From NCBI GenBank assembly GCA_020438215.1, contig JAGQUX010000002.1:1-64000 (forward strand): a stretch of DNA of 64,000 nt. Reading direction: 5' to 3'. The position numbers and the translations under genes are program-made. This stretch comes from Armatimonadota bacterium (GTDB lineage: Bacteria; Armatimonadota; Fimbriimonadia; Fimbriimonadales; Fimbriimonadaceae). Below the pieces are notes generated by a model. The model had not been told where the DNA came from and searched no databases. It saw only the letters and a program-made list of their open reading frames with translations. Below are positions 25,892 to 45,741 of this stretch, in pieces (positions within the stretch are counted from its first letter, which is position 1; every line of letters begins with the position of its first letter).

Positions 25892-26554
25892 ATGCCCTCC
25901 AACATTCGTGTTGTGATTGCGGATGACGAACCGGCTTACCGAAACGCCATCCAACGCACGCTGACTCTCATGCCTGAGTGTCAGGTTCTCGCTGTATGTA
26001 AAGATGGTCAAGAAGCACTTGACGCCTGCCTGCAGGATGTGCCCGATGTGCTTCTCACCGACATTAATATGCCACGCCTTGATGGCCTGGAATTGATGCG
26101 CCGACTTCTGAAGAAAGAGAAGGAAGTTCAGGTTGTGGTGCTTACCATCAACGAAGAAGAAGAAGTGGTATTCGAAGCGTTCCGAGCGGGCGCACTGGGC
26201 TACTTGCTCAAAACATCCACTCCGCAAGAAGTGATTGATGCAATTCGCCTCGCTTTCCGCGGTGAAGCCAAGATCACTCCGAAGATTGCAACCAAGGTAA
26301 TCGAAGATTTCCGACGAGTGAAGGATGACGACGAAACCGACGATACGGAACTTTACGTTCTGTCCGATCGGGAAACCGAAATTCTGGAACTCATCGCAAA
26401 GGGCATGCGAAACAAGGAAATCGCCAACCATCTCAGCATTGCCGAGAAAACGGTTAAGAACCACGTCTCGAATATCCTGAAGGCGTTGCAAGTCAATAGC
26501 CGAACTGAAGCCGCAATGAAGGCCGTGCGGGCCAAGTTGGTTCAGGGAAACTAA
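25892..26554 (+). CDS. NarL/FixJ-family response regulator
   Basis: 220 residues. Receiver domain with acidic pocket DDE (11-13), phospho-acceptor Asp in LLTDINMP, Thr in VVLTINEEEE and Lys in GYLLKTSTP. The C-terminal LuxR-type HTH begins at LSDRETEILELIAKGMRNKEIANHLSIAEKTVKNH. A short acidic linker (KDDDETDDTE) joins them. No histidine kinase gene is adjacent, so it is an orphan regulator. Followed by an intrinsic terminator. Confidence 0.92.
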   Translation: MPSNIRVVIADDEPAYRNAIQRTLTLMPECQVLAVCKDGQEALDACLQDVPDVLLTDINMPRLDGLELMRRLLKKEKEVQVVVLTINEEEEVVFEAFRAGALGYLLKTSTPQEVIDAIRLAFRGEAKITPKIATKVIEDFRRVKDDDETDDTELYVLSDRETEILELIAKGMRNKEIANHLSIAEKTVKNHVSNILKALQVNSRTEAAMKAVRAKLVQGN

Positions 26555-31254: not shown

Positions 31255-32202
31255 TTACGGGTTCAAAACTGATCGATAAACGGCGGCATATTTCTCCGCG
31301 CACTCTTGAATATTGAAGCGATCTTCGACTTTTGCGCGCCCGGCTAAACCGAGGGCTTCGCGGTGGACGGGAGCATCAATAAGCTCGAGGAGGTGACGGG
31401 TGAGATCGTTTTCATCCTCATAAACCTCGAGGCTGACATTGGCGACGCCCATCTCGGAAAGTCCGCCCACATCTTTGGCCATGACCGGCACGCCGGAGCT
31501 CATGGCAAGGAGGCAATCCAGATCGATTCCTAATCCCGGCTTGCTCTGGATGACGAGATCGGAAGCGGCAATCCAAAGAGGAAGTTGCTCTCGGGATTCG
31601 ATTTTGTCTGCACCGGGAGTCTCTTCGTCTGAAAAGATTGCGAAGGAAACATCCGCTCGTTGGTTGGTGATCTCGTGGACGACGTCATCCATATGGTCAG
31701 AAGAGAGGGAAAGAACAAGAAATTCTTCCGGCCCAAAACCGAGTTGTTCGCGGGCGGTTTCCCGATCGAAGCGTAAATAGGGTGGCAACCCAGGGTAGAT
31801 CGTTTTGAGGTGGGAAGTGTACGCGCCATCTAGGAATTGTCGGGCGGCACTGCAACAGCAGATCCCGGTTCGCGCGGAGTTCAGGCGATCCACCAATTGG
31901 TTGTTCGATGTTTTGGGCATATCGAAGGCGGTGTACACCCACGGGAACCGCAGATAAAACGCCTCACCGCAAGCCCAAGCTGTCCTCATCCCCCAAGCGT
32001 GGACAAGATCAAATCCACGGATGGATTCTTTCAACCGTTTGGAGACTTTGCGATCTACCGACCAGCCGGTTTCGTTGGGAATCCAATCCACTTCATCAAT
32101 GGCAACATCGATATCAAGTTCCCCAAGCGGCGCAATGAGTGATTCGGCAAATTCAGCCATTTGCCCATGGTTTTGTCGGCGCAGGAAGAGGACGCGGATC
32201 AC
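31255..32202 (-). CDS. Glycosyltransferase, GT4-like
   Basis: 315 residues. GT-B layout with a C-terminal domain resembling glycosyltransferase group 1: LPLWIAASDLVIQSKPGLGIDLDCLLAMSSGVPVMAKDVGGLSEMG holds the usual E/D-loop region, although the classic Glu-x7-Glu reads as Gly/Asp-rich. The N-terminal half binds acceptor. It lies 19 nt downstream of moxR on the same strand. The sugar donor is unknown. Confidence 0.75.
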   Translation of the reverse strand: MIRVLFLRRQNHGQMAEFAESLIAPLGELDIDVAIDEVDWIPNETGWSVDRKVSKRLKESIRGFDLVHAWGMRTAWACGEAFYLRFPWVYTAFDMPKTSNNQLVDRLNSARTGICCCSAARQFLDGAYTSHLKTIYPGLPPYLRFDRETAREQLGFGPEEFLVLSLSSDHMDDVVHEITNQRADVSFAIFSDEETPGADKIESREQLPLWIAASDLVIQSKPGLGIDLDCLLAMSSGVPVMAKDVGGLSEMGVANVSLEVYEDENDLTRHLLELIDAPVHREALGLAGRAKVEDRFNIQECAEKYAAVYRSVLNP

Positions 32203-32221
32203 TGCTTAAGATATTGAGGGT

Positions 32222-33169
32222 TTAGCGCGGCACGGTCTGGGCATCAATGAGTTGCCCAAGCACCTGATCAACGGTGTAGCCTTCGATTTCTGCCTCCGGT
32301 CGGATAAGGATGCGGTGGCGCAAAACGGGGAGCGAAAGCTCTTTGACATCATCCGGAATGACGAAGTCGCGTCCGCGCATGGCGGCAAGAGCTTTGGAAG
32401 TGGAAACCAGGGCAAGTCCGGCGCGAGGCGAAGCACCGACAAGGACATCGTGGCTGGTTCGCGTTGCTTTCACAAGCTCATAGATGTAGTTGAAAATTTT
32501 CTCTTCGACCCGAACGGCGTTGACTTCTTCGCGTAGCGATTTCAGCATTTCCGTATTGATGACCGGCTGGATATTGGCTCGCTCGAGGTTGGTCGCTCGG
32601 AAGCCTTGATCGTAATTGCGGAGGACTTGGATTTCCGCTTCATCACCGGGGTAATCGAGGATGATCTTGAGAAGGAAGCGATCTTGCTGTGCTTCGGGGA
32701 GGGGGTAAGTCCCTTCGTGTTCGATTGGGTTCTCGGTAGCAAAACACAAGAACGGGTACGGAAGCGGGAGTCGCTGCCCATCAATCGTGACCTGACGTTC
32801 TTCCATCGCTTCCAATAGAGCCGATTGGGTTTTGGGCGGGGTGCGGTTGATCTCGTCGGCCAGGAGGACAGCGGTGAAGATCGGCCCTTTCTTGAGGGTG
32901 AATTCCGAGGTCTGCTGATTAAAAACGTTGGTGCCAAGCACGTCGCTCGGCATGAGATCGGGGGTGAACTGAATGCGCGAGAACTGCAAGTCTACGGTTC
33001 GAGAAAGGGTTTTGACGAGAAGGGTCTTTCCAAGACCGGGAACGCCTTCTAGCAAACAGTGCCCATCAGCGAGGATTGCGACAATGGCTTGTTCAACGGC
33101 TTTGTGCTGACCAACAATGGCTTTCGCCACTTCCTCCATGATTCGGGCGGAGACCTGCGCGACTTGCAT
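32222..33169 (-). CDS. MoxR-family AAA+ ATPase
   Basis: 315 residues. Walker A in [14 protein letters not shown], Walker B in [28 protein letters not shown], sensor 1 in [24 protein letters not shown]-terminal lid [27 protein letters not shown]. MoxR proteins act as chaperones for metal or cofactor insertion, usually with a DUF58/VWA partner; none is adjacent here. Confidence 0.92.
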
Positions 33170-33285: not shown

Positions 33286-34413
33286 ATGAAAATGAACCCA
33301 TCTCTCAAAGCCGTCTTGATAGGGGGCGCTTTTCTAGGTGCTTTGTATGGCGCCTATTGGGGATATGGGGAACTGCAGCTCAAAGATTTTGAAGTCACAC
33401 CGGTCGCTCCGGGCGATGTCAACATGATTGCTTTTGATGCGACGGGCAAGTACCGCATTCGTGTTGCGAATCGGGTTGCAACTCTTGTCGAACTGAGCGG
33501 GGATGCAACAGAGCGACGCGCATCGGCTATGGGTGCCGCAGATGAAGATGCACGCCGCATTCCAATCCGTGAGATGTTAGGAGCCTTACAGGGAAAAGAG
33601 GATGACCTGAGCTATTTGATCTCCTCGATGAATAAGTTCAAGGAAGACGATTTGCCTGGGAAAGAAATTCTTTGGTCAGCTTCAGATTTGAAGAAAGCAA
33701 TTGATGGCGACGTGACCCTCAAAGCAAAGCTCGAGGAAGATCTCCTGATGAAGCTTGACGGCACGCCCTTCGATCGCATCAGCATGACGGCTTTGATGAA
33801 CGGAATTGTTATCGAACTTCCTATCCCGATGGAAATTAATGTTGGGGGCAAAGTCAAGTCCGTCACGGGGACAGTGAAGATTCCATTCAAAACGCGTCTC
33901 ATGGATGCGTTTGAGAAGCTTGCCAGTGAGAAGGCAACGCTTGGTCAGGACTTCATCATAGGGAACTACGAGCAACTGGCTCAGAGTATTTTGGAAGGCA
34001 CCTCGAACAAAGAAGATTTGGGAAAAGCGATCTCAAAATTGATCTCAGATACTCAAATTGACCGGTATCGGCAGGCTCCGGCCCAACTATTGCAGAGTGC
34101 TGAGGTGTTGATCACCGATGAACACCTTCGAGGATGCGAAATCTCATCGTATCAAGATGACCGTGGTAACACGATCACTGATATGTCGATACGTGTGAAC
34201 GACGAAGGTAGGAAGCGGCTTTGGAAGCACAGCCGAGATACCAAAGGTTTCTCGCTGATGCTGATTGTCGATGGGGTTGCCATTGCGGCTCCGGAAGTGG
34301 TTTCTCAGCTTGGCGGGAGCGAAGTCAAGATCAGTCGCTTAATGGAGCAACGCCTTGCCGAAGAAGCTAAGGAAAAGATCAACGTCATTTCAGGACAACA
34401 AGGAAAGAATTAA
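33286..34413 (+). CDS. Membrane-anchored protein with SecD-P1-like domain
   Basis: 375 residues from the ATG at 33286. One N-terminal membrane helix (AVLIGGAFLGALYGAYWGYG) anchors a large outer part. Residues ~271-367 follow the SecD first periplasmic (P1) head pattern: a SAEVLITDEHLRGCEIS strand, SIRVNDEGRKRLW (the 'ltpeGak' helix), then LMLIVDGVAIAAPEV (the 'laivlDgkvisaP' strand). The rest (helix-rich, residues 60-260) is unrecognised, and none of SecD's six transmembrane helices exists. It opens an operon: its stop overlaps the next start (TAATG). Confidence 0.75.
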   Translation: MKMNPSLKAVLIGGAFLGALYGAYWGYGELQLKDFEVTPVAPGDVNMIAFDATGKYRIRVANRVATLVELSGDATERRASAMGAADEDARRIPIREMLGALQGKEDDLSYLISSMNKFKEDDLPGKEILWSASDLKKAIDGDVTLKAKLEEDLLMKLDGTPFDRISMTALMNGIVIELPIPMEINVGGKVKSVTGTVKIPFKTRLMDAFEKLASEKATLGQDFIIGNYEQLAQSILEGTSNKEDLGKAISKLISDTQIDRYRQAPAQLLQSAEVLITDEHLRGCEISSYQDDRGNTITDMSIRVNDEGRKRLWKHSRDTKGFSLMLIVDGVAIAAPEVVSQLGGSEVKISRLMEQRLAEEAKEKINVISGQQGKN

Positions 34414-35192
34414 TGAAGTACGGGACATGGATATGCATTGCACTCGCAAGCATCGCGCTTGTGGGTTGCGGAAAAGATGACACTGCTGGCGTCGCCGTAG
34501 GCGGCGGCCCATCCGGTGATGGCAAGAGTGAAGCACCGGCCACACCGATTCAATCTCAAGAAATCAAAGATGGCGAATCGCCGATGGATCTCTTGCCTAC
34601 GACTGTCGGTAGCCAGGCTGTTTACGAAGTCACTCAAGTTGGCACTAACGAGAAGCGAGAAATTACTCTCAAGGTTGCTAATGTCAAGGAAGTTAACGGC
34701 AAGAAAATCGTGACTCTGGAAACCTACATGGAGGATCCAGAAACCAAGACTGAAAAGAAAACTGATCAGAGCGATTGGGAAATCGGACCAGAGGGTGTTG
34801 CTCAACGAACTTCGGCCGAAACAAAAACTTACGATCCGCCACAACCTGTTCTCAAGTTCCCAATCAAAGTTGGTGAAGAAAGCACTTACGAAGGTGTTGG
34901 CCCAGTACCTGTTGGCGGTCAAGTTGGAAAGCAAGCGGGCAAATACCGTGTGCGCTCATTTGAAGAAGTCGATACTCCGATGGGAACCGTCAACTCGGTC
35001 GCTTGCGAATCTCTTATCGCTTTCGAAGCAGAGAACGAGAAAGGCGAGAAAGGTGTCGTTCGAATCAAAACAGTCATCTGGCTCGCACCCAAGTACGGTA
35101 TCGTTCGTTTTAAGAATTACGCGCTGACGAACACGGGTCAGCAACAGGAAATCCAAAGTCTGGCGATTAAGTCATTCTCGGAAAAGAAGTAG
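34413..35192 (+). CDS. Lipoprotein, member 1 of four-gene paralogous set
   Basis: 259 residues. Lipobox LVGC (Cys19). After a Gly/Pro-rich linker, a beta-rich domain begins at PMDLLPTTVGSQAVYEV. It shares with the next three genes a core of the form (G-x-W/Y ... strand ... 'TPxGxFxxv' ... strand ... aromatic-LAPKYGIVRFKNYAL), here VDTPMGTVNSVACES. Function unknown; exported and lipid-anchored. Third-codon usage is normal for the region. Confidence 0.75.
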   Translation: MKYGTWICIALASIALVGCGKDDTAGVAVGGGPSGDGKSEAPATPIQSQEIKDGESPMDLLPTTVGSQAVYEVTQVGTNEKREITLKVANVKEVNGKKIVTLETYMEDPETKTEKKTDQSDWEIGPEGVAQRTSAETKTYDPPQPVLKFPIKVGEESTYEGVGPVPVGGQVGKQAGKYRVRSFEEVDTPMGTVNSVACESLIAFEAENEKGEKGVVRIKTVIWLAPKYGIVRFKNYALTNTGQQQEIQSLAIKSFSEKK

Positions 35193-35195
35193 GAC

Positions 35196-35960
35196 ATGAA
35201 AATCAAGGCATCATCACTCATTCTCGCGTTGGGACTCTTTGCTTTCGGCCTAGTGGCCTGTGACAAGAAGAAAGATGAAGGGACTTCAAACTCGGTGACC
35301 GCTCAGGGCAAAACGACTGAGAACCAAGAGACACCGACTTTGCCTGAATCAGATGCGGATGATGTGACCGATGCTCAGCGTCATGCCGGATACCAGTACT
35401 ACGGTATCGGCAAAAACCAAACACTGACCTTTGATATGACTCGCCCTGATAGCGAAGGTAAACCCGCGACTTCTGAAGGGAAGCAGTCGGTGATTTATCA
35501 AGGAAAGGTCGATGGTGTTCCGACTTACAAGTTTGAGCGTGAAGGTGCTCTGGCTGATATGGGTACCGACACGGTTGTTCTGAAAGATGATGGCGTGTTT
35601 TTGTTGGAATCTCAATTCGGAAAATTTGATACACCGGTTATCGCTCTCCCCAGCGAAATGAGTGTTGGGAAAAACTGGGCAAGCTCTCAAACCGTGAAGG
35701 GGCCGACGGGAGAAGATGTGAATATCGAGCTGAACAACAAGATTGTTCGCGAAGAGAAAATCACCACTCCGGCCGGTGAATTTGATACGATGGTAGTGAC
35801 TTCAACTGGAACAATCAAAATGGCGGACGTCACTCAGCCCGTAACGGGAACGGTTTGGTATGCAAAGGGCATTGGCTCGGTCAAGTTGGAAATCAAGGCG
35901 ACTGACGCGGCAACGGGCAAACCGACCGTCACCACTGTTGTTCTGAAGTCAATGGAGTAA
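35196..35960 (+). CDS. Lipoprotein, member 2 of paralogous set
   Basis: 254 residues, lipobox LVAC (Cys22), then a charged linker (DKKKDEG). The C-terminal core, from MSVGKNWASSQTV through ITTPAGEFDTMVVTSTG to GTVWYAKGIGSVKLEI, matches member 1 and resembles the DUF3108-like 'TPAGxFxx(v)' lipid-carrier sandwiches. Starts 3 nt after member 1. Confidence 0.75.
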   Translation: MKIKASSLILALGLFAFGLVACDKKKDEGTSNSVTAQGKTTENQETPTLPESDADDVTDAQRHAGYQYYGIGKNQTLTFDMTRPDSEGKPATSEGKQSVIYQGKVDGVPTYKFEREGALADMGTDTVVLKDDGVFLLESQFGKFDTPVIALPSEMSVGKNWASSQTVKGPTGEDVNIELNNKIVREEKITTPAGEFDTMVVTSTGTIKMADVTQPVTGTVWYAKGIGSVKLEIKATDAATGKPTVTTVVLKSME

Positions 35961-35964
35961 TCCA

Positions 35965-36582
35965 GTGATTGCCACACTTATTGCCGCTTCATCGATCCTT
36001 GGCCAAGAGAAATCGGCCAAGGATTTCTATCCTTTAATTCCAAATTCCACTTGGGTCTACGAAGAATCTCAAAAAGGGAAGAAAGACAAATCCACTTTGG
36101 AAATGACGGTGAACGAAGCGGTCAAATTTCGTGATCATGATGTGATCCCGGTTGCGAACAAGATGGGTCGCCAGGTCACGAATATTTACTATCAAGTGAC
36201 TGATTCAGAGGTGTTTGTCCTGGGATACGATCTTGAGCAAATGCTTGATAAACCGATTCCGATCTTGAAACTGCAAGGGAAGGAAGCGAATTGGAATTAC
36301 CGTGGAAGCACACAATTGATGGGGTACCCGGCGTCGCTCTCGATGCAATGTACAAGCAAGCTTCTGGGCAAGCGCAAAGTTCTCGGTGAAGAGTGCGAAA
36401 TTCTCGAAGTCAAGTACAAAGCGGTGATCGACGAAGACAGCGGCGGCCTCAAAATCGAGTCCGAGCAAACGGCACTTTATGCGGCTGGAATCGGTCTTTA
36501 TGAAATGAAAGAGATTGGCAATTTCGGGAAGCAACGCACGGAACGAAGCCTCAAGCTGATTTCGTATGAAAAAGGGAACTAA
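35965..36582 (+). CDS. Exported protein, member 3 of paralogous set
   Basis: 205 residues, GTG start. A very short hydrophobic N-terminus (MIATLIAASSILG) replaces a lipobox, so it is probably soluble periplasmic. Domain: FYPLIPNSTWVYEE, EANWNYRGSTQL, KRKVLGEECEILEVKYKA, and TALYAAGIGLYEMKEIG, the equivalent of the aromatic strand in members 1 and 2. Four nt after member 2, and the stop overlaps the start of member 4. Confidence 0.7.
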   Translation: MIATLIAASSILGQEKSAKDFYPLIPNSTWVYEESQKGKKDKSTLEMTVNEAVKFRDHDVIPVANKMGRQVTNIYYQVTDSEVFVLGYDLEQMLDKPIPILKLQGKEANWNYRGSTQLMGYPASLSMQCTSKLLGKRKVLGEECEILEVKYKAVIDEDSGGLKIESEQTALYAAGIGLYEMKEIGNFGKQRTERSLKLISYEKGN

Positions 36583-37271
36583 TGAAAAATCTTTCATTGA
36601 TTGTCAGCGGGCTTATTGCAACAACGGCATTCGCCGTTGTTTCTTGTACTCAGCCGTCCAAAAATCCGGACAATCATGAAAACGACAGTCCACCCACGCC
36701 TCTCAACAAAATAGAGTCTCCAATCAGCGAAGCGCAGAGTTTGAATCCCGAAGCTGCTCCGCCCAAGCTCGGAAATCTCGTACTAGCTGGAACCCTTGTT
36801 CCAGTCGATGTGAAAGCGACAAGGGAAGGCAATACACTACTCATCGAATGTTTGAGCCGCGATACCGTTGTCGAGCGGGAAAAATACTCCTTCAGCGACA
36901 AAGTTTTTGCCATCGTCTCTGGCCCGAGTGACGTTTTTGAACCGCCGATCGCAATCATCCAATATCCCATGGATATTGGCAGCGAATCGAGCTGGGCAGG
37001 CAAAGTTCGAACAGGAACCAATAGTAACCCGGCTAAGGCGATTATTAAGTCTAGTCAAGAGCCAGTGAATGAAGATTTTGGGAGTTTTCAAGCCCTCAAA
37101 GTGACGGTTGACCTGCGGATTGATACTGGCTCTCCGGAACAATCTGAGGCTCGGTTGCAGTTCTGGTTCAAGCCTGGTGAAGGCATGATCATGCGCGAAT
37201 TCGGCGCAGTTTCTAAGCGAGAGCCCCGAATTTCGGAAGATCGAGAACCAACGAGCCCCGAAGAGGGTTAA
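36582..37271 (+). CDS. Lipoprotein, member 4 of paralogous set
   Basis: 229 residues, lipobox VVSC (Cys22), then a Pro/Asn-rich linker. Core: YPMDIGSESSWAGKVRTG, EDFGSFQALKVTVDL and ARLQFWFKPGEGMIMREFG, aligned with members 1-3. It overlaps member 3 by 1 nt and ends 11 nt before rodA, so the whole set is one transcription unit with a shape-determining gene. Confidence 0.7.
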   Translation: MKNLSLIVSGLIATTAFAVVSCTQPSKNPDNHENDSPPTPLNKIESPISEAQSLNPEAAPPKLGNLVLAGTLVPVDVKATREGNTLLIECLSRDTVVEREKYSFSDKVFAIVSGPSDVFEPPIAIIQYPMDIGSESSWAGKVRTGTNSNPAKAIIKSSQEPVNEDFGSFQALKVTVDLRIDTGSPEQSEARLQFWFKPGEGMIMREFGAVSKREPRISEDREPTSPEEG

Positions 37272-37282
37272 TCAGTTTTGAT

Positions 37283-38401
37283 ATGGGAGCATTCTCTGCC
37301 GATAGACAGTTTGTGGTGGAGAGGTCGTCAAAGCCTCGACACGACTATTGGCTGCTCCTGAGTGCATTCATCCTCGCTGCTGCTGGGCTCCTCTGTATGC
37401 ACAGCATCGACCGGTCGCTTGGCACCAACCACGCGATCAAGCAGTCGATCTTTTTTGCTCTGGGATTGGGCGTTTTTCTGGTTGCGAACAAAATCAAATT
37501 GACCGTTTGGAAGAATATGTTCTGGCCACTCTATATCGCCACGAACGTCTTGCTTTTTTTGACGCTATTGATTGGTAAAGGCCCGAACGATGTCAAGCGA
37601 TGGATTGCAATTGGATCGTTTCAGTTTCAGTCTTCTGAAGTCGCCAAGATATTGATCGCCGTGTGCTTTGGTGTATTTTACGCTAAGCGCGAAGAGATCA
37701 TCCGTCAGCCCAAGGTGTTTGCCGGGGCTCTCCTCGTCGCATTGCCGCCGTTACTGTTGATCTTCAAACAACCGCACTTAGGGGGAGCGCTTTCCATCAT
37801 CGTTATGACGATTGCGGCCGCACTTTACGCGGGAGTCCCCGGGAAATTCTTCCCGATTGTCCTTGCTGGACTGATACTTCTGGGTGGTGCGGTATGGGTG
37901 ATGCCGAACGTACTTTCACCTTATATGCGGGGACGGGTGAATAGTCTCATCAATAAGTTTGTGAATGATGATGCTGATGTTCGTGGCAGTGGCTACCAAC
38001 AGCATCAAGCGATGATTGCTATCGGCTCTGGCGGGCCGCTTGGAGCTGGGCTTTTCAATGGCGATCAAAAAGCCGCCGATATCATTCCTGAGCAGCATTC
38101 CGACTTCATTTTCAGCGTTGTCGGAGAGGAAGGCGGGTTCTTTGGGTCTGTGTTGCTGCTGATCTGCTTTGGTTTCTTCTTTTTCCGAGCGTGGTTGGTG
38201 GGTTATCGCGCCAAAACGACAATGGGCAGGGTGGTCGCCGGATCGCTGTTTGCCGTGCTGGGTTTCCACTTCATTGTCAATATGGCGATGGTGCTTCAGA
38301 TTGGGCCGGTTGTGGGCTTGTGGCTCCCATTTATGAGCTACGGTGGCACCGCGCTTTGGATGTGTATGGCGTCGGTTGGCATTCTCGATCAATGCGAATG
38401 A
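37283..38401 (+). CDS. rodA: RodA/FtsW-family SEDS glycosyltransferase
   Basis: 372 residues, about ten membrane helices. SEDS marks: RWIAIGSFQFQSSEVAKI, PHLGGALSIIVM, SGYQQHQAMIAIGSGG, EQHSDFIFSVVGEEGGFFGS and GLWLPFMSYGGTALW. These polymerise lipid II into glycan strands with a class B PBP. No PBP2 or MreBCD gene is adjacent. The RodA versus FtsW assignment rests on overall resemblance. Confidence 0.88.
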   Translation: MGAFSADRQFVVERSSKPRHDYWLLLSAFILAAAGLLCMHSIDRSLGTNHAIKQSIFFALGLGVFLVANKIKLTVWKNMFWPLYIATNVLLFLTLLIGKGPNDVKRWIAIGSFQFQSSEVAKILIAVCFGVFYAKREEIIRQPKVFAGALLVALPPLLLIFKQPHLGGALSIIVMTIAAALYAGVPGKFFPIVLAGLILLGGAVWVMPNVLSPYMRGRVNSLINKFVNDDADVRGSGYQQHQAMIAIGSGGPLGAGLFNGDQKAADIIPEQHSDFIFSVVGEEGGFFGSVLLLICFGFFFFRAWLVGYRAKTTMGRVVAGSLFAVLGFHFIVNMAMVLQIGPVVGLWLPFMSYGGTALWMCMASVGILDQCE

Positions 38402-38410
38402 TCGCTATGC

Positions 38411-38416
38411 TATAAT
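38411..38416 (+). promoter_or_regulatory. -10 element of leaderless ftsK
   Basis: Consensus TATAAT beginning 9 nt after the end of rodA and ending 6 nt before the ftsK ATG; no Shine-Dalgarno. It suggests ftsK has its own start site. Confidence 0.55.
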
Positions 38417-38422
38417 GAACCT

Positions 38423-40681
38423 ATGCCCAAGGAAGGGCGGACGACTAAATCTTCCGCGAAATCTTCGCGTGCCAAGAAGGCCACACCAGCAACCAACCAC
38501 CGTACTTTAGAGGTGGTCGGAATTGTCCTGATCGCCCTCGCCCTTGTTCTTATTGTGGGGCTGAGTGCGAGCAACGGCGGACTGCTGGGGGATTCTGTGG
38601 CGCAACTCTCCCGTATCCTCTTTGGACGCGGCGCGTGGATTGTTCCTGCCGTCCTTGGTCTGAGCGGCCTCTCGTTGATTTTCGGGCGGGCGCAAATTCA
38701 ATCCCGATTAGTGGCTTGGGGGGCATCACTGACTTTTCTTGGTGTATTGGCGGCACTCGCTAAACCGGACGCCACCGGCGATTACTTTGTCAGTCAGGCG
38801 ATGGAATCGAGCGGTGGCTACTTCGGCGCGATTGTTGGCTGGGCACTGAGTTCACTGTTTGGTGAAGGCAAGGTCATCGGCGTTTTTGCAATGATCGTGA
38901 TCGGGTTGCTTCTCTGCCTCAATATCCCGATCCGCGAGACGATTCAGAACATCAAGGATGCTTCGAAAGAGGAGAAGATCACCAAGGGCATTGATAAGGC
39001 AAAAGCCAAGGCTCTCAAGCAAGAAGAAGCAGCCCTTTCTGCGCGGATGAATCGGCGATCATCGGCCGCAGCGGTTGTTGTTGAAGAAGATGATCCGAAA
39101 CCAGAAGTCAAAAAACCGAAAATCGCCTTTCAAACTCCGGAGCCATCAAAGCCAATTGCCCAATCTGGGGAACTTGATTTTGCGAGCTACAAGAACCCAG
39201 AGCCGGAGAATGGATATCAACTTCCTCCTCTTGATCTGCTTGTCGAGCCGGATAAGAAGGGCAAAAAAGATCCGAAGGAAGTCCAGCAGAACATCGAAAA
39301 GCTGGAAGACACACTCGAAGAATTCAATATTGATGCGAACGTGGTTGCGGTTGCGCAGGGGCCGACCATCACGCGCTATGAAATTCAGCTGGGGCCGGGG
39401 ATTCGCGTTAACAAGATTGTCAATCTCGCGGATAACATTGCCATGTCACTTGCAGCGAGCCATGTCCGGGTGGAAGCACCCATTCCTGGCAAGAGCGCGA
39501 TTGGGATTGAAATCCCCTCTGCAACTCGCCAAATGGTGAGTTTGCGGGAGATGTGCGATAGTCTTGAGTTTCACGATAAAACGCATAAGCTCTGTATTGC
39601 GCTTGGAAAAGACGTTGCCGGTGCAAATGTTTACACTGACTTGACCCGGATGCCTCACCTTTTGGTTGGGGGGGCAACTAATAGCGGGAAATCGATATGT
39701 CTGAGTAGCCTCATCATGAGCCTCATCCTGAAGATGACTCCGAAGGAACTCAAGCTCGTGATGATCGACCCGAAGCGGGTGGAACTCACCCTTTTTGAAG
39801 GCCTACCGCACTTGATGTGTCCGGTGGTCAAAGATGTCAAAGAGTCGGCGGGGGTTCTTCGCGCAGTGGTGCGCGAGATGGATCGCCGCTACGACAAGTT
39901 CTCCGAGGCTGGAGTTCGAAACATTGATGGTTGGAATGCCAAGGCTTCTTATCAAGATCAGATTCCGTACATCGTGGTGATCGTAGATGAGCTTGCCGAC
40001 CTCATGATCCAGTGCGGGAATGAAGTCGAAACAAGCATTTGCCGGTTGGCTCAACTCGCGCGTGCGGTGGGGATTCACCTGGTGATCGCAACCCAGCGCC
40101 CGAGCGTGGACGTTATTACCGGGACGATCAAGAACAACATTTCGAGCCGCGTAGCGTTCGCGGTCAGTAGCGGGATTGATAGCCGCACGATTCTTGACTC
40201 AACCGGCGCAGAGGATTTGATCGGGAGGGGCGACATGCTCTTCCTTCCGATTGATGCGACCAAGCCGATTCGGATTCAGGGCAACTTTGTGAGCGAGAAG
40301 GAGATTGAAGATGTCTGCAACTTCTGGCGCAAACAAGAAAAGCCGCACTACGTTCTCAACCCCGTCCAAATCGTGCTGGAAGAACGCGAGTCCGAGATGC
40401 GCGAAGCAGCGGCGGACGATCCACTGTTTGAAGATGTCGTGCGGTTCGTTGTCGGCGGTGGGCAGGCGAGCACTAGCACTCTTCAGCGCAAATTCTCGAT
40501 CGGGTTCCAGCGGGCCGGTCGCATCATGGACATGATGGAGGAGCGCGGCATCATCGGCCCGAAAGAAGGCACGAAACCGCGTCAGGTTCTGGTTGATCCG
40601 ATGCAAGCTGAGGCACTACTTGGGAATGCACAGTACGAGAATCCTATGCCTGAAGGCGCGTATCTGGAAGACGAAGACTAA
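38423..40681 (+). CDS. ftsK: DNA translocase FtsK/SpoIIIE
   Basis: 752 residues. Basic N-terminus, four membrane helices (~30-180), a charged linker, then the motor: beta domain with GPTITRYEIQLGPGIRV and GKSAIGIEIPS, Walker A LVGGATNSGKSICL, VMIDPKRVELTLF, Walker B VVIVDELADLM and VIATQRPSVDVITGTIK. The C-terminal gamma winged helix (ASTSTLQRKFSIGFQRAGRIMDMMEERGIIG) reads KOPS-type DNA signals. It pumps chromosome ends through the division septum. Confidence 0.96.
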   Translation: MPKEGRTTKSSAKSSRAKKATPATNHRTLEVVGIVLIALALVLIVGLSASNGGLLGDSVAQLSRILFGRGAWIVPAVLGLSGLSLIFGRAQIQSRLVAWGASLTFLGVLAALAKPDATGDYFVSQAMESSGGYFGAIVGWALSSLFGEGKVIGVFAMIVIGLLLCLNIPIRETIQNIKDASKEEKITKGIDKAKAKALKQEEAALSARMNRRSSAAAVVVEEDDPKPEVKKPKIAFQTPEPSKPIAQSGELDFASYKNPEPENGYQLPPLDLLVEPDKKGKKDPKEVQQNIEKLEDTLEEFNIDANVVAVAQGPTITRYEIQLGPGIRVNKIVNLADNIAMSLAASHVRVEAPIPGKSAIGIEIPSATRQMVSLREMCDSLEFHDKTHKLCIALGKDVAGANVYTDLTRMPHLLVGGATNSGKSICLSSLIMSLILKMTPKELKLVMIDPKRVELTLFEGLPHLMCPVVKDVKESAGVLRAVVREMDRRYDKFSEAGVRNIDGWNAKASYQDQIPYIVVIVDELADLMIQCGNEVETSICRLAQLARAVGIHLVIATQRPSVDVITGTIKNNISSRVAFAVSSGIDSRTILDSTGAEDLIGRGDMLFLPIDATKPIRIQGNFVSEKEIEDVCNFWRKQEKPHYVLNPVQIVLEERESEMREAAADDPLFEDVVRFVVGGGQASTSTLQRKFSIGFQRAGRIMDMMEERGIIGPKEGTKPRQVLVDPMQAEALLGNAQYENPMPEGAYLEDED

Positions 40682-44985: not shown

Positions 44986-45741
44986 CTATCCGTGTCCTGC
45001 TTCCCAGCCATCCATTTCACCTTGATGCTGTTCGGCGGTCTGCTCTAAATCAATTCTCATTGAATCAAATTCAATCCCATCAATTGGAGTATTGATGTCG
45101 ATTGTGCACCAAAAGCTTGGGGCTTCTCCTGACTCGAGATCCGGTGACTCATATTCCCACTGATCATTGATAGTCCAGTTGATATCTTTTACCCTTAGTG
45201 ATTTAAGAAAAGTATCTCTATCTTCAGGACGCGGAAATAGGAATGCAAATGTGACATCTCTCGGTTTGAATAGGTCATCACCTTGCCTGCGGAATTCTTT
45301 TTTCAATTCCTCGTTTAGATCAATAGGGTTTATGTCATCCAATCGTTTAAACCAATCCAGATATGTTGTCCACTCTTTGTCAAGAACAGAGTTGATTTCA
45401 AAAGTTCGTTTTCCGAATAGCCCGGCTTTCACAGTAACTGAATGTGGGCAATTCTCATTGCCATAAAAGACCGCAATGATACGACCGTTCCCTGTTCTAT
45501 GCCCAACAAATAGCTGGCCATGCGCGGATAGAACGTCAATAATGCGGTCTTCGAATTTGAGTGCCTTGGTAAGTTCCGAGCTTGAGACAGGCAAGCCTGT
45601 TTCGTTTGAAATATATGGAATCTCAATAGTTGAACAATAGATATGTTCAGGAAAATCTGCGGGCTCAAGTAAGCAGAAATTTACCGTACCATTGTTGATC
45701 GGATCAGGCAGTGCCTTCCATCGAGATTCCCCAGTATACAT
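44986..45741 (-). CDS. DUF695 plus RraB-like domain protein
   Basis: 251 residues, no signal. The N-terminal half (WKALPDPINNGTVNFCLL ... GHRTGNGRIIAVFYG ... WTTYLDWFKRLDD) has the DUF695 arrangement, and the C-terminal half (FAFLFPRPEDRDTFLKSLRVKDINWTI) looks like an RraB/RNase E-inhibitor domain. Residues 60-110 are less clear. AT-rich compared with msrB and sod. Tight coupling to msrB suggests shared stress induction, which is inference. Confidence 0.65.
   Translation of the reverse strand: MYTGESRWKALPDPINNGTVNFCLLEPADFPEHIYCSTIEIPYISNETGLPVSSSELTKALKFEDRIIDVLSAHGQLFVGHRTGNGRIIAVFYGNENCPHSVTVKAGLFGKRTFEINSVLDKEWTTYLDWFKRLDDINPIDLNEELKKEFRRQGDDLFKPRDVTFAFLFPRPEDRDTFLKSLRVKDINWTINDQWEYESPDLESGEAPSFWCTIDINTPIDGIEFDSMRIDLEQTAEQHQGEMDGWEAGHG

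Follow-up and report, generated by a model that had tools for sequence, protein, structure and literature searches.

A conserved cassette of a predicted SecD P1-head protein, YmcC/LolA-like lipoproteins and RodA in Fimbriimonadaceae suggests an envelope module tied to wall growth

Six tightly packed genes, called as ORFs on the forward strand at 33286-38401 of the window (the whole 64-kb stretch of DNA analyzed), encode what is by sequence and model a membrane-anchored SecD P1 head (the P1 protein), a set of related exported proteins (LpA to LpD) and RodA. The order P1-Lp(2-4)-RodA was found in all 43 Fimbriimonadaceae loci that we read, representing about 30 genera, which is far beyond chance. 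The cassette is real and conserved, and from its sequences and models we infer a candidate function. The conserved association of P1, Lp and RodA suggests that they form an undescribed module of the envelope, linked to growth of the wall.

The cassette in its genome and family

The source genome is 2.64 Mb in size and 99% complete, and the presence of a BamA-type Omp85 protein indicates a diderm envelope. The features of the locus are as follows.

32222..33169, -, MoxR AAA+ ATPase, a divergent neighbor (PF07726), often near the cassette in relatives
33286..34413, +, P1-head protein, 375 aa (ORF; AlphaFold2 pLDDT 91; matches to SecDF P1 heads)
33298..33381, +, predicted membrane anchor of the P1 protein, aa 5-32 (model helix; hydrophobic across aligned relatives)
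33412..33492, +, first strands of the predicted P1 head, aa 43-69 (SecDF structural alignments begin at model residues 43-44)
33526..34062, +, insertion domain within the P1 head, about aa 80-260 (alignment; absent from short relatives)
34078..34395, +, remainder of the P1 head, aa 265-370; its motifs EGRKRLW and LIVDGVAIAAP align to SecD (PF22599; SecDF alignments)
34413..35192, +, LpA, predicted lipoprotein of the YmcC/LolA-like set, lipobox LVGC (weak DUF3108_like match; homology to LpB-D)
35196..35960, +, LpB, predicted lipoprotein, DUF3108_like, lipobox LVAC (PF21347, 2e-11; AlphaFold2 model; YmcC-like matches at Z 13)
35965..36582, +, LpC, predicted exported paralogue with a GTG start, a short signal peptide and no lipobox Cys (sequence; homology to LpA, LpB and LpD)
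36582..37271, +, LpD, predicted lipoprotein paralogue, lipobox VVSC (homology to LpA-C)
37283..38401, +, RodA, the genome's only SEDS protein besides FtsW (PF01098, 1.8e-66; NF037961 over its cut-off)
38411..38416, +, TATAAT 6 nt before the ftsK ATG, a leaderless-type promoter placement (sequence; site class enriched at that spacing)

The spacing from P1 through LpA, LpB, LpC and LpD to RodA is -1, +3, +4, -1 and +11 nt, and ftsK starts at 38423, 21 nt past the end of RodA. An earlier note on this DNA had described six genes with gaps of -1 to 11 nt, RodA directly after the Lp genes, and then ftsK with a -10 element of its own, all of which agrees with what we find. TATAAT-like hexamers exactly 6 nt upstream of the start precede 3.3% of first ATGs versus 0.22% of internal ATGs, an enrichment that we read as a sign of frequent leaderless transcripts. 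Further sites of this kind occur in the window at 25892 and at the starts of 32222-33169 and 44986-45741, as well as at starts in family loci L033-L072, L119-L121 and L188-L192.

The P1 orthologues of the family loci are 27 to 41% identical to the source protein. All four Lp genes are present in 25 of the 43 loci, 13 lack LpC and the rest show other losses; LpC is missing from 14 in all. Of 61 family genomes sampled, 58 have the P1 gene, and across the class 106 of 113 genomes encode the protein, be it full-length or short. The earlier note had named conservation of the neighbors in close relatives as a point on which its reading could fail, and they are kept throughout these family loci. The flanking genes (ftsK, moxR and a glycosyltransferase) vary; many relatives have the MoxR ATPase and a glycosyltransferase-like gene (window 31255-33169) along with the cassette, though not always in the same orientation. 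Two reduced Fimbriimonadaceae genomes of 1.5 Mb (G029 and G048; loci L183-L186) keep RodA, MreB and BamA but lack a P1 gene, and their rodA has no Lp neighbors.

RodA itself is ordinary, matching PF01098 at 1.8e-66 and NF037961 at 164 bits against a cut-off of 150; its 287 bits against TIGR02210 fall below that family's cut-off of 337. Two SEDS genes per genome were present in the 16 genomes checked first, with one copy in G193 apparently split. The pair in the source genome (G000) consists of FtsW in the dcw cluster and the RodA of the cassette, which is thus the sole elongation SEDS protein. Of the RodA/MreBCD elongasome, two full-length copies of MreB and PBP2-like transpeptidases (the latter at G000:C30 and C11) are encoded elsewhere in the genome.

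The P1-head protein and the Lp family

The model of the first gene product has a single N-terminal helix (aa 5-32) with N-in topology, followed by a predicted periplasmic domain. The top eight PDB matches of a Foldseek search with this AlphaFold2 model (mean pLDDT 91, pTM 0.84, from an alignment of 37 relatives) were SecDF, all eight. VIA-align placed it on SecDF P1 heads with Z scores of 10.4 to 10.6 and an rmsd of 2.4 to 2.7 over 102 to 110 residues, while the best non-Sec row reached Z 5.2 and unrelated rows about 5 or lower. The proposal of the earlier note, one membrane helix with a C-terminal SecD P1 head and none of the SecD channel helices, therefore survives the structure search that had been named beforehand as able to refute it. 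Sequence comparisons point the same way with less force. Pfam PF22599 matches aa 265-360 with an E value of 1.8e-5 and 25 bits, just below the 27-bit cut-off, and in a six-frame search of the genome the P1 head scores 27.2 bits, above it. The P1 profile ranked SecDF P1 first in the PDB, yet with an E value of 0.55; the single sequence gave only chance hemoglobin rows, and alignment of the profile to the genome's own SecDF was in register but weak. Given such weak PDB sequence searches, the fold comparison is the real evidence for the identity of the protein.

The model residues matched to the SecDF head are 43-69 and approximately 265-370, from which it follows that an insertion of about 180 aa interrupts the head. 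Short relatives align to positions 4-102 and 267-346 of the profile only and do not have the insertion. Likeness to SecD extends beyond the head fold to the conserved EGR...DG...AAP motifs and to the expected periplasmic placement. Unlike SecD and SecDF, the protein has a single membrane anchor, an interrupted head and a gene that is not part of a sec operon. It gave no Pfam match to the P1 base subdomain (SecD_1st, PF21760), which the genome's own SecDF does match, and only about 12 residues separate anchor and head in the model. The multi-span, RND-type proton-conducting channel (PF02355) is absent by Pfam, and the model contains one helix. A separate secDF, whose presence the earlier note had wanted checked, does exist: a complete SecDF of 844 aa, with base, head and channel, is encoded at G000:C58, and we rejected a role of the P1 protein as a substitute for SecD on this ground. 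By sequence and model, then, the P1 protein is a SecD P1 head, predicted to be anchored in the inner membrane, that carries an inserted domain and has neither base nor proton-driven channel.

The P1 domain of SecD has been proposed to bind emerging chains (PMC6028853), and passive binding of a chain or partner is for this reason a natural guess for the P1 protein. The same proposal, together with the retained head fold and motifs and the SurA-like PPIase that adjoins the cassette in some relatives, would fit an auxiliary holdase at the Sec exit that takes emerging chains from SecYEG and is perhaps specialized for Lps or other envelope proteins. We regard this as improbable in view of the missing channel or force-generating part, the lack of any sec gene at the locus and the complete SecDF elsewhere.

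The four Lp proteins are homologous to one another. All six profile-profile pairs gave probabilities of 96 to 99%, versus less than 10% for controls. LpB matches PF21347 (DUF3108_like) at 2e-11, with 44.5 bits against a cut-off of 27; the match of LpA is weak and below the Pfam cut-off, and LpC and LpD, which have no Pfam match, are linked to LpA and LpB by the profile-profile comparison. The LpB model (pLDDT 88) matches the YmcC-like lipoproteins 4fvs and 3fzx at Z 13 and YmcC (2in5) at Z 9.7. We conclude from sequence and model that the Lp set is one expanded family of predicted exported proteins with a YmcC/LolA-type half-barrel fold. The earlier note's four paralogues and three lipoboxes stand, but the sandwich domain that it gave them is replaced by this half barrel. 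LpC and its orthologues (window 35965-36000) have a very short hydrophobic signal without the usual positive charges.

The half-barrel fold of LpB is firm, and a carrier role for the Lp proteins is not. LpB scores Z 6 to 7.5 against LolA, LppX and RseB, where porins score equally or higher, and its range against LolA (Z 6 to 7.2) is one that unrelated barrels also reach. With LolA-like scores only middling and within reach of unrelated barrels, carriage of lipids or lipoproteins is a guess. The LolA profile did not match LpA-D, and a search of ten genomes with it came back mostly empty, which says little because LolA-like families are diverse.

DUF3108 is given no function in the literature searched. 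The nearest folds to LpB, YmcC and YmcC-like lipoproteins, bring to mind the YmcC (GfcB) of group 4 capsule loci, and a glycosyltransferase-like gene often lies next to moxR by the locus, so that handling of an outer polysaccharide layer might be considered. This seems to us very improbable, since no other capsule export gene was recognized at the loci read and the glycosyltransferase has no fixed link to the cassette. The likeness to DUF3108_like and YmcC (GfcB) proteins consists of the half barrel, the lipoboxes and, for LpB, a score over the Pfam cut-off; what differs is that here four diverged tandem paralogues share an operon with rodA and the gene of a P1-head protein, and that no capsule locus was seen.

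Sister families and the wider phylum

Beyond Fimbriimonadaceae, two sister families keep P1 and Lp genes with rodA not adjacent. Six of the seven loci from sister family f42 carry P1 and Lps together, and the seventh ends at a contig edge. The arrangement is P1-LpA-LpB-LpC-LpD, either followed by moxR (four of the seven loci) or close to a gene for a SurA-like PPIase. Most of these genomes have rodA at another place; only one (L193) has it near the cassette, a few genes downstream. PPIC-type PPIase genes by the f42 cassette lie at L199:3196-4005, L194:2376-3260 and L197:11851-12726, two of them SurA-like. Family f2 (L102) has P1-LpA-LpC-LpD about 5 kb from mreB. A purH gene and a gene for an Ig-like-repeat protein stand beside mreB both in this family (L102:1335-6828) and in Fimbriimonadaceae (L190:6476-11172), and the cassette of L102 adjoins this neighborhood.

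In more distant Armatimonadota the P1 protein is short, lacks the insertion and has different neighbors. In family f43 it is followed by a gene that we take from its sequence to be mqnD-like, MqnD being a menaquinone pathway protein (L202, L203, L204, L206, L208 and L209). A gene presumed from its sequence to encode a class-V aminotransferase-like protein often adjoins short P1 in f9 and f25, and lies directly by the short P1 or the f2 cassette in L103, L105, L107, L111 and L102. No Lp genes were found at the short-P1 loci read from f43, f9 and f25. Full-length P1 and Lp co-occur at every complete locus read from three families. Of all parts of the cassette, the P1-head protein is distributed most widely.

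These sister families and short P1 proteins indicate that P1 and Lp together make up the conserved unit, and that the link to rodA is family-wide and not ancestral; an ancestral rodA link was rejected for the same sister-family arrangement. The P1-lipoprotein-RodA envelope machine of the earlier note is accordingly retained as a family-wide association, but RodA falls outside the ancestral unit, as the reduced genomes also show; that P1 grips exported chains or acts on wall-linked proteins is conjecture. In Fimbriimonadaceae the P1-Lp unit is packed into one apparent operon with the sole rodA of the genome. Insertion and Lp set go hand in hand, and rodA is adjacent only in this family, which makes the inserted domain likely to be the Lp-docking part.

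A possible role in envelope growth

As a tentative best explanation, we propose a lineage-specific envelope cassette in which a P1 docking protein and Lps that would handle lipids or lipoproteins are co-expressed with RodA, matching envelope assembly to wall growth. On the periplasmic side of the inner membrane, the P1-head protein would serve passively as a docking or holding platform, with Lp proteins or their client chains bound by its head and inserted domain. The Lp half barrels may carry or shield lipids or lipoproteins between the membrane, the wall and the outer membrane. Joint expression with RodA would keep this assembly of the envelope in proportion to lateral growth of the wall, and the complex may act beside the elongasome. 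The middling LolA-like match and the short P1 proteins with no Lp genes at the locus count against this explanation.

Alternatively, P1 and Lp may form a separate envelope module for lipid, lipoprotein or outer-layer assembly, with rodA a mere passenger that has been the last gene of the operon since the Fimbriimonadaceae ancestor and is kept for expression reasons. We consider this a real possibility, if a somewhat doubtful one. Both the f42 arrangement and the two reduced genomes, in which RodA persists though P1 is missing, favor it and weaken a coupling to RodA. Retention of the linkage in 43 of 43 loci while ftsK, moxR and the glycosyltransferase move supports the coupling and speaks against a passenger, as do the nearby rodA of L193 and the nearby mreB of L102. 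It is unlikely, in our estimate, that the Sec-free P1 head with its inserted domain would be at the center of a lipoprotein complex regulating or serving RodA wall elongation and linking outer-envelope assembly to lateral growth.

LpoA and LpoB act on class A PBPs. LpoB-type activators are a precedent for lipoproteins that act on wall synthases. In the literature searched we found neither a lipoprotein partner whose gene shares an operon with rodA nor a described P1-lipoprotein-RodA system, and no mention of a P1 head subdomain by name; the earlier note likewise did not know the arrangement from described systems.

Across much of one phylum, the SecD P1 head thus appears to stand alone as a protein with its own membrane anchor, with an insertion and lipoproteins in one order and, additionally, with the sole rodA in one family. 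The cassette offers a natural system for learning what the P1 head does without the SecDF proton channel, and, for a diderm group that has received little study, it provides a defined, conserved set of candidates that may couple traffic in the outer envelope to the activity of RodA.
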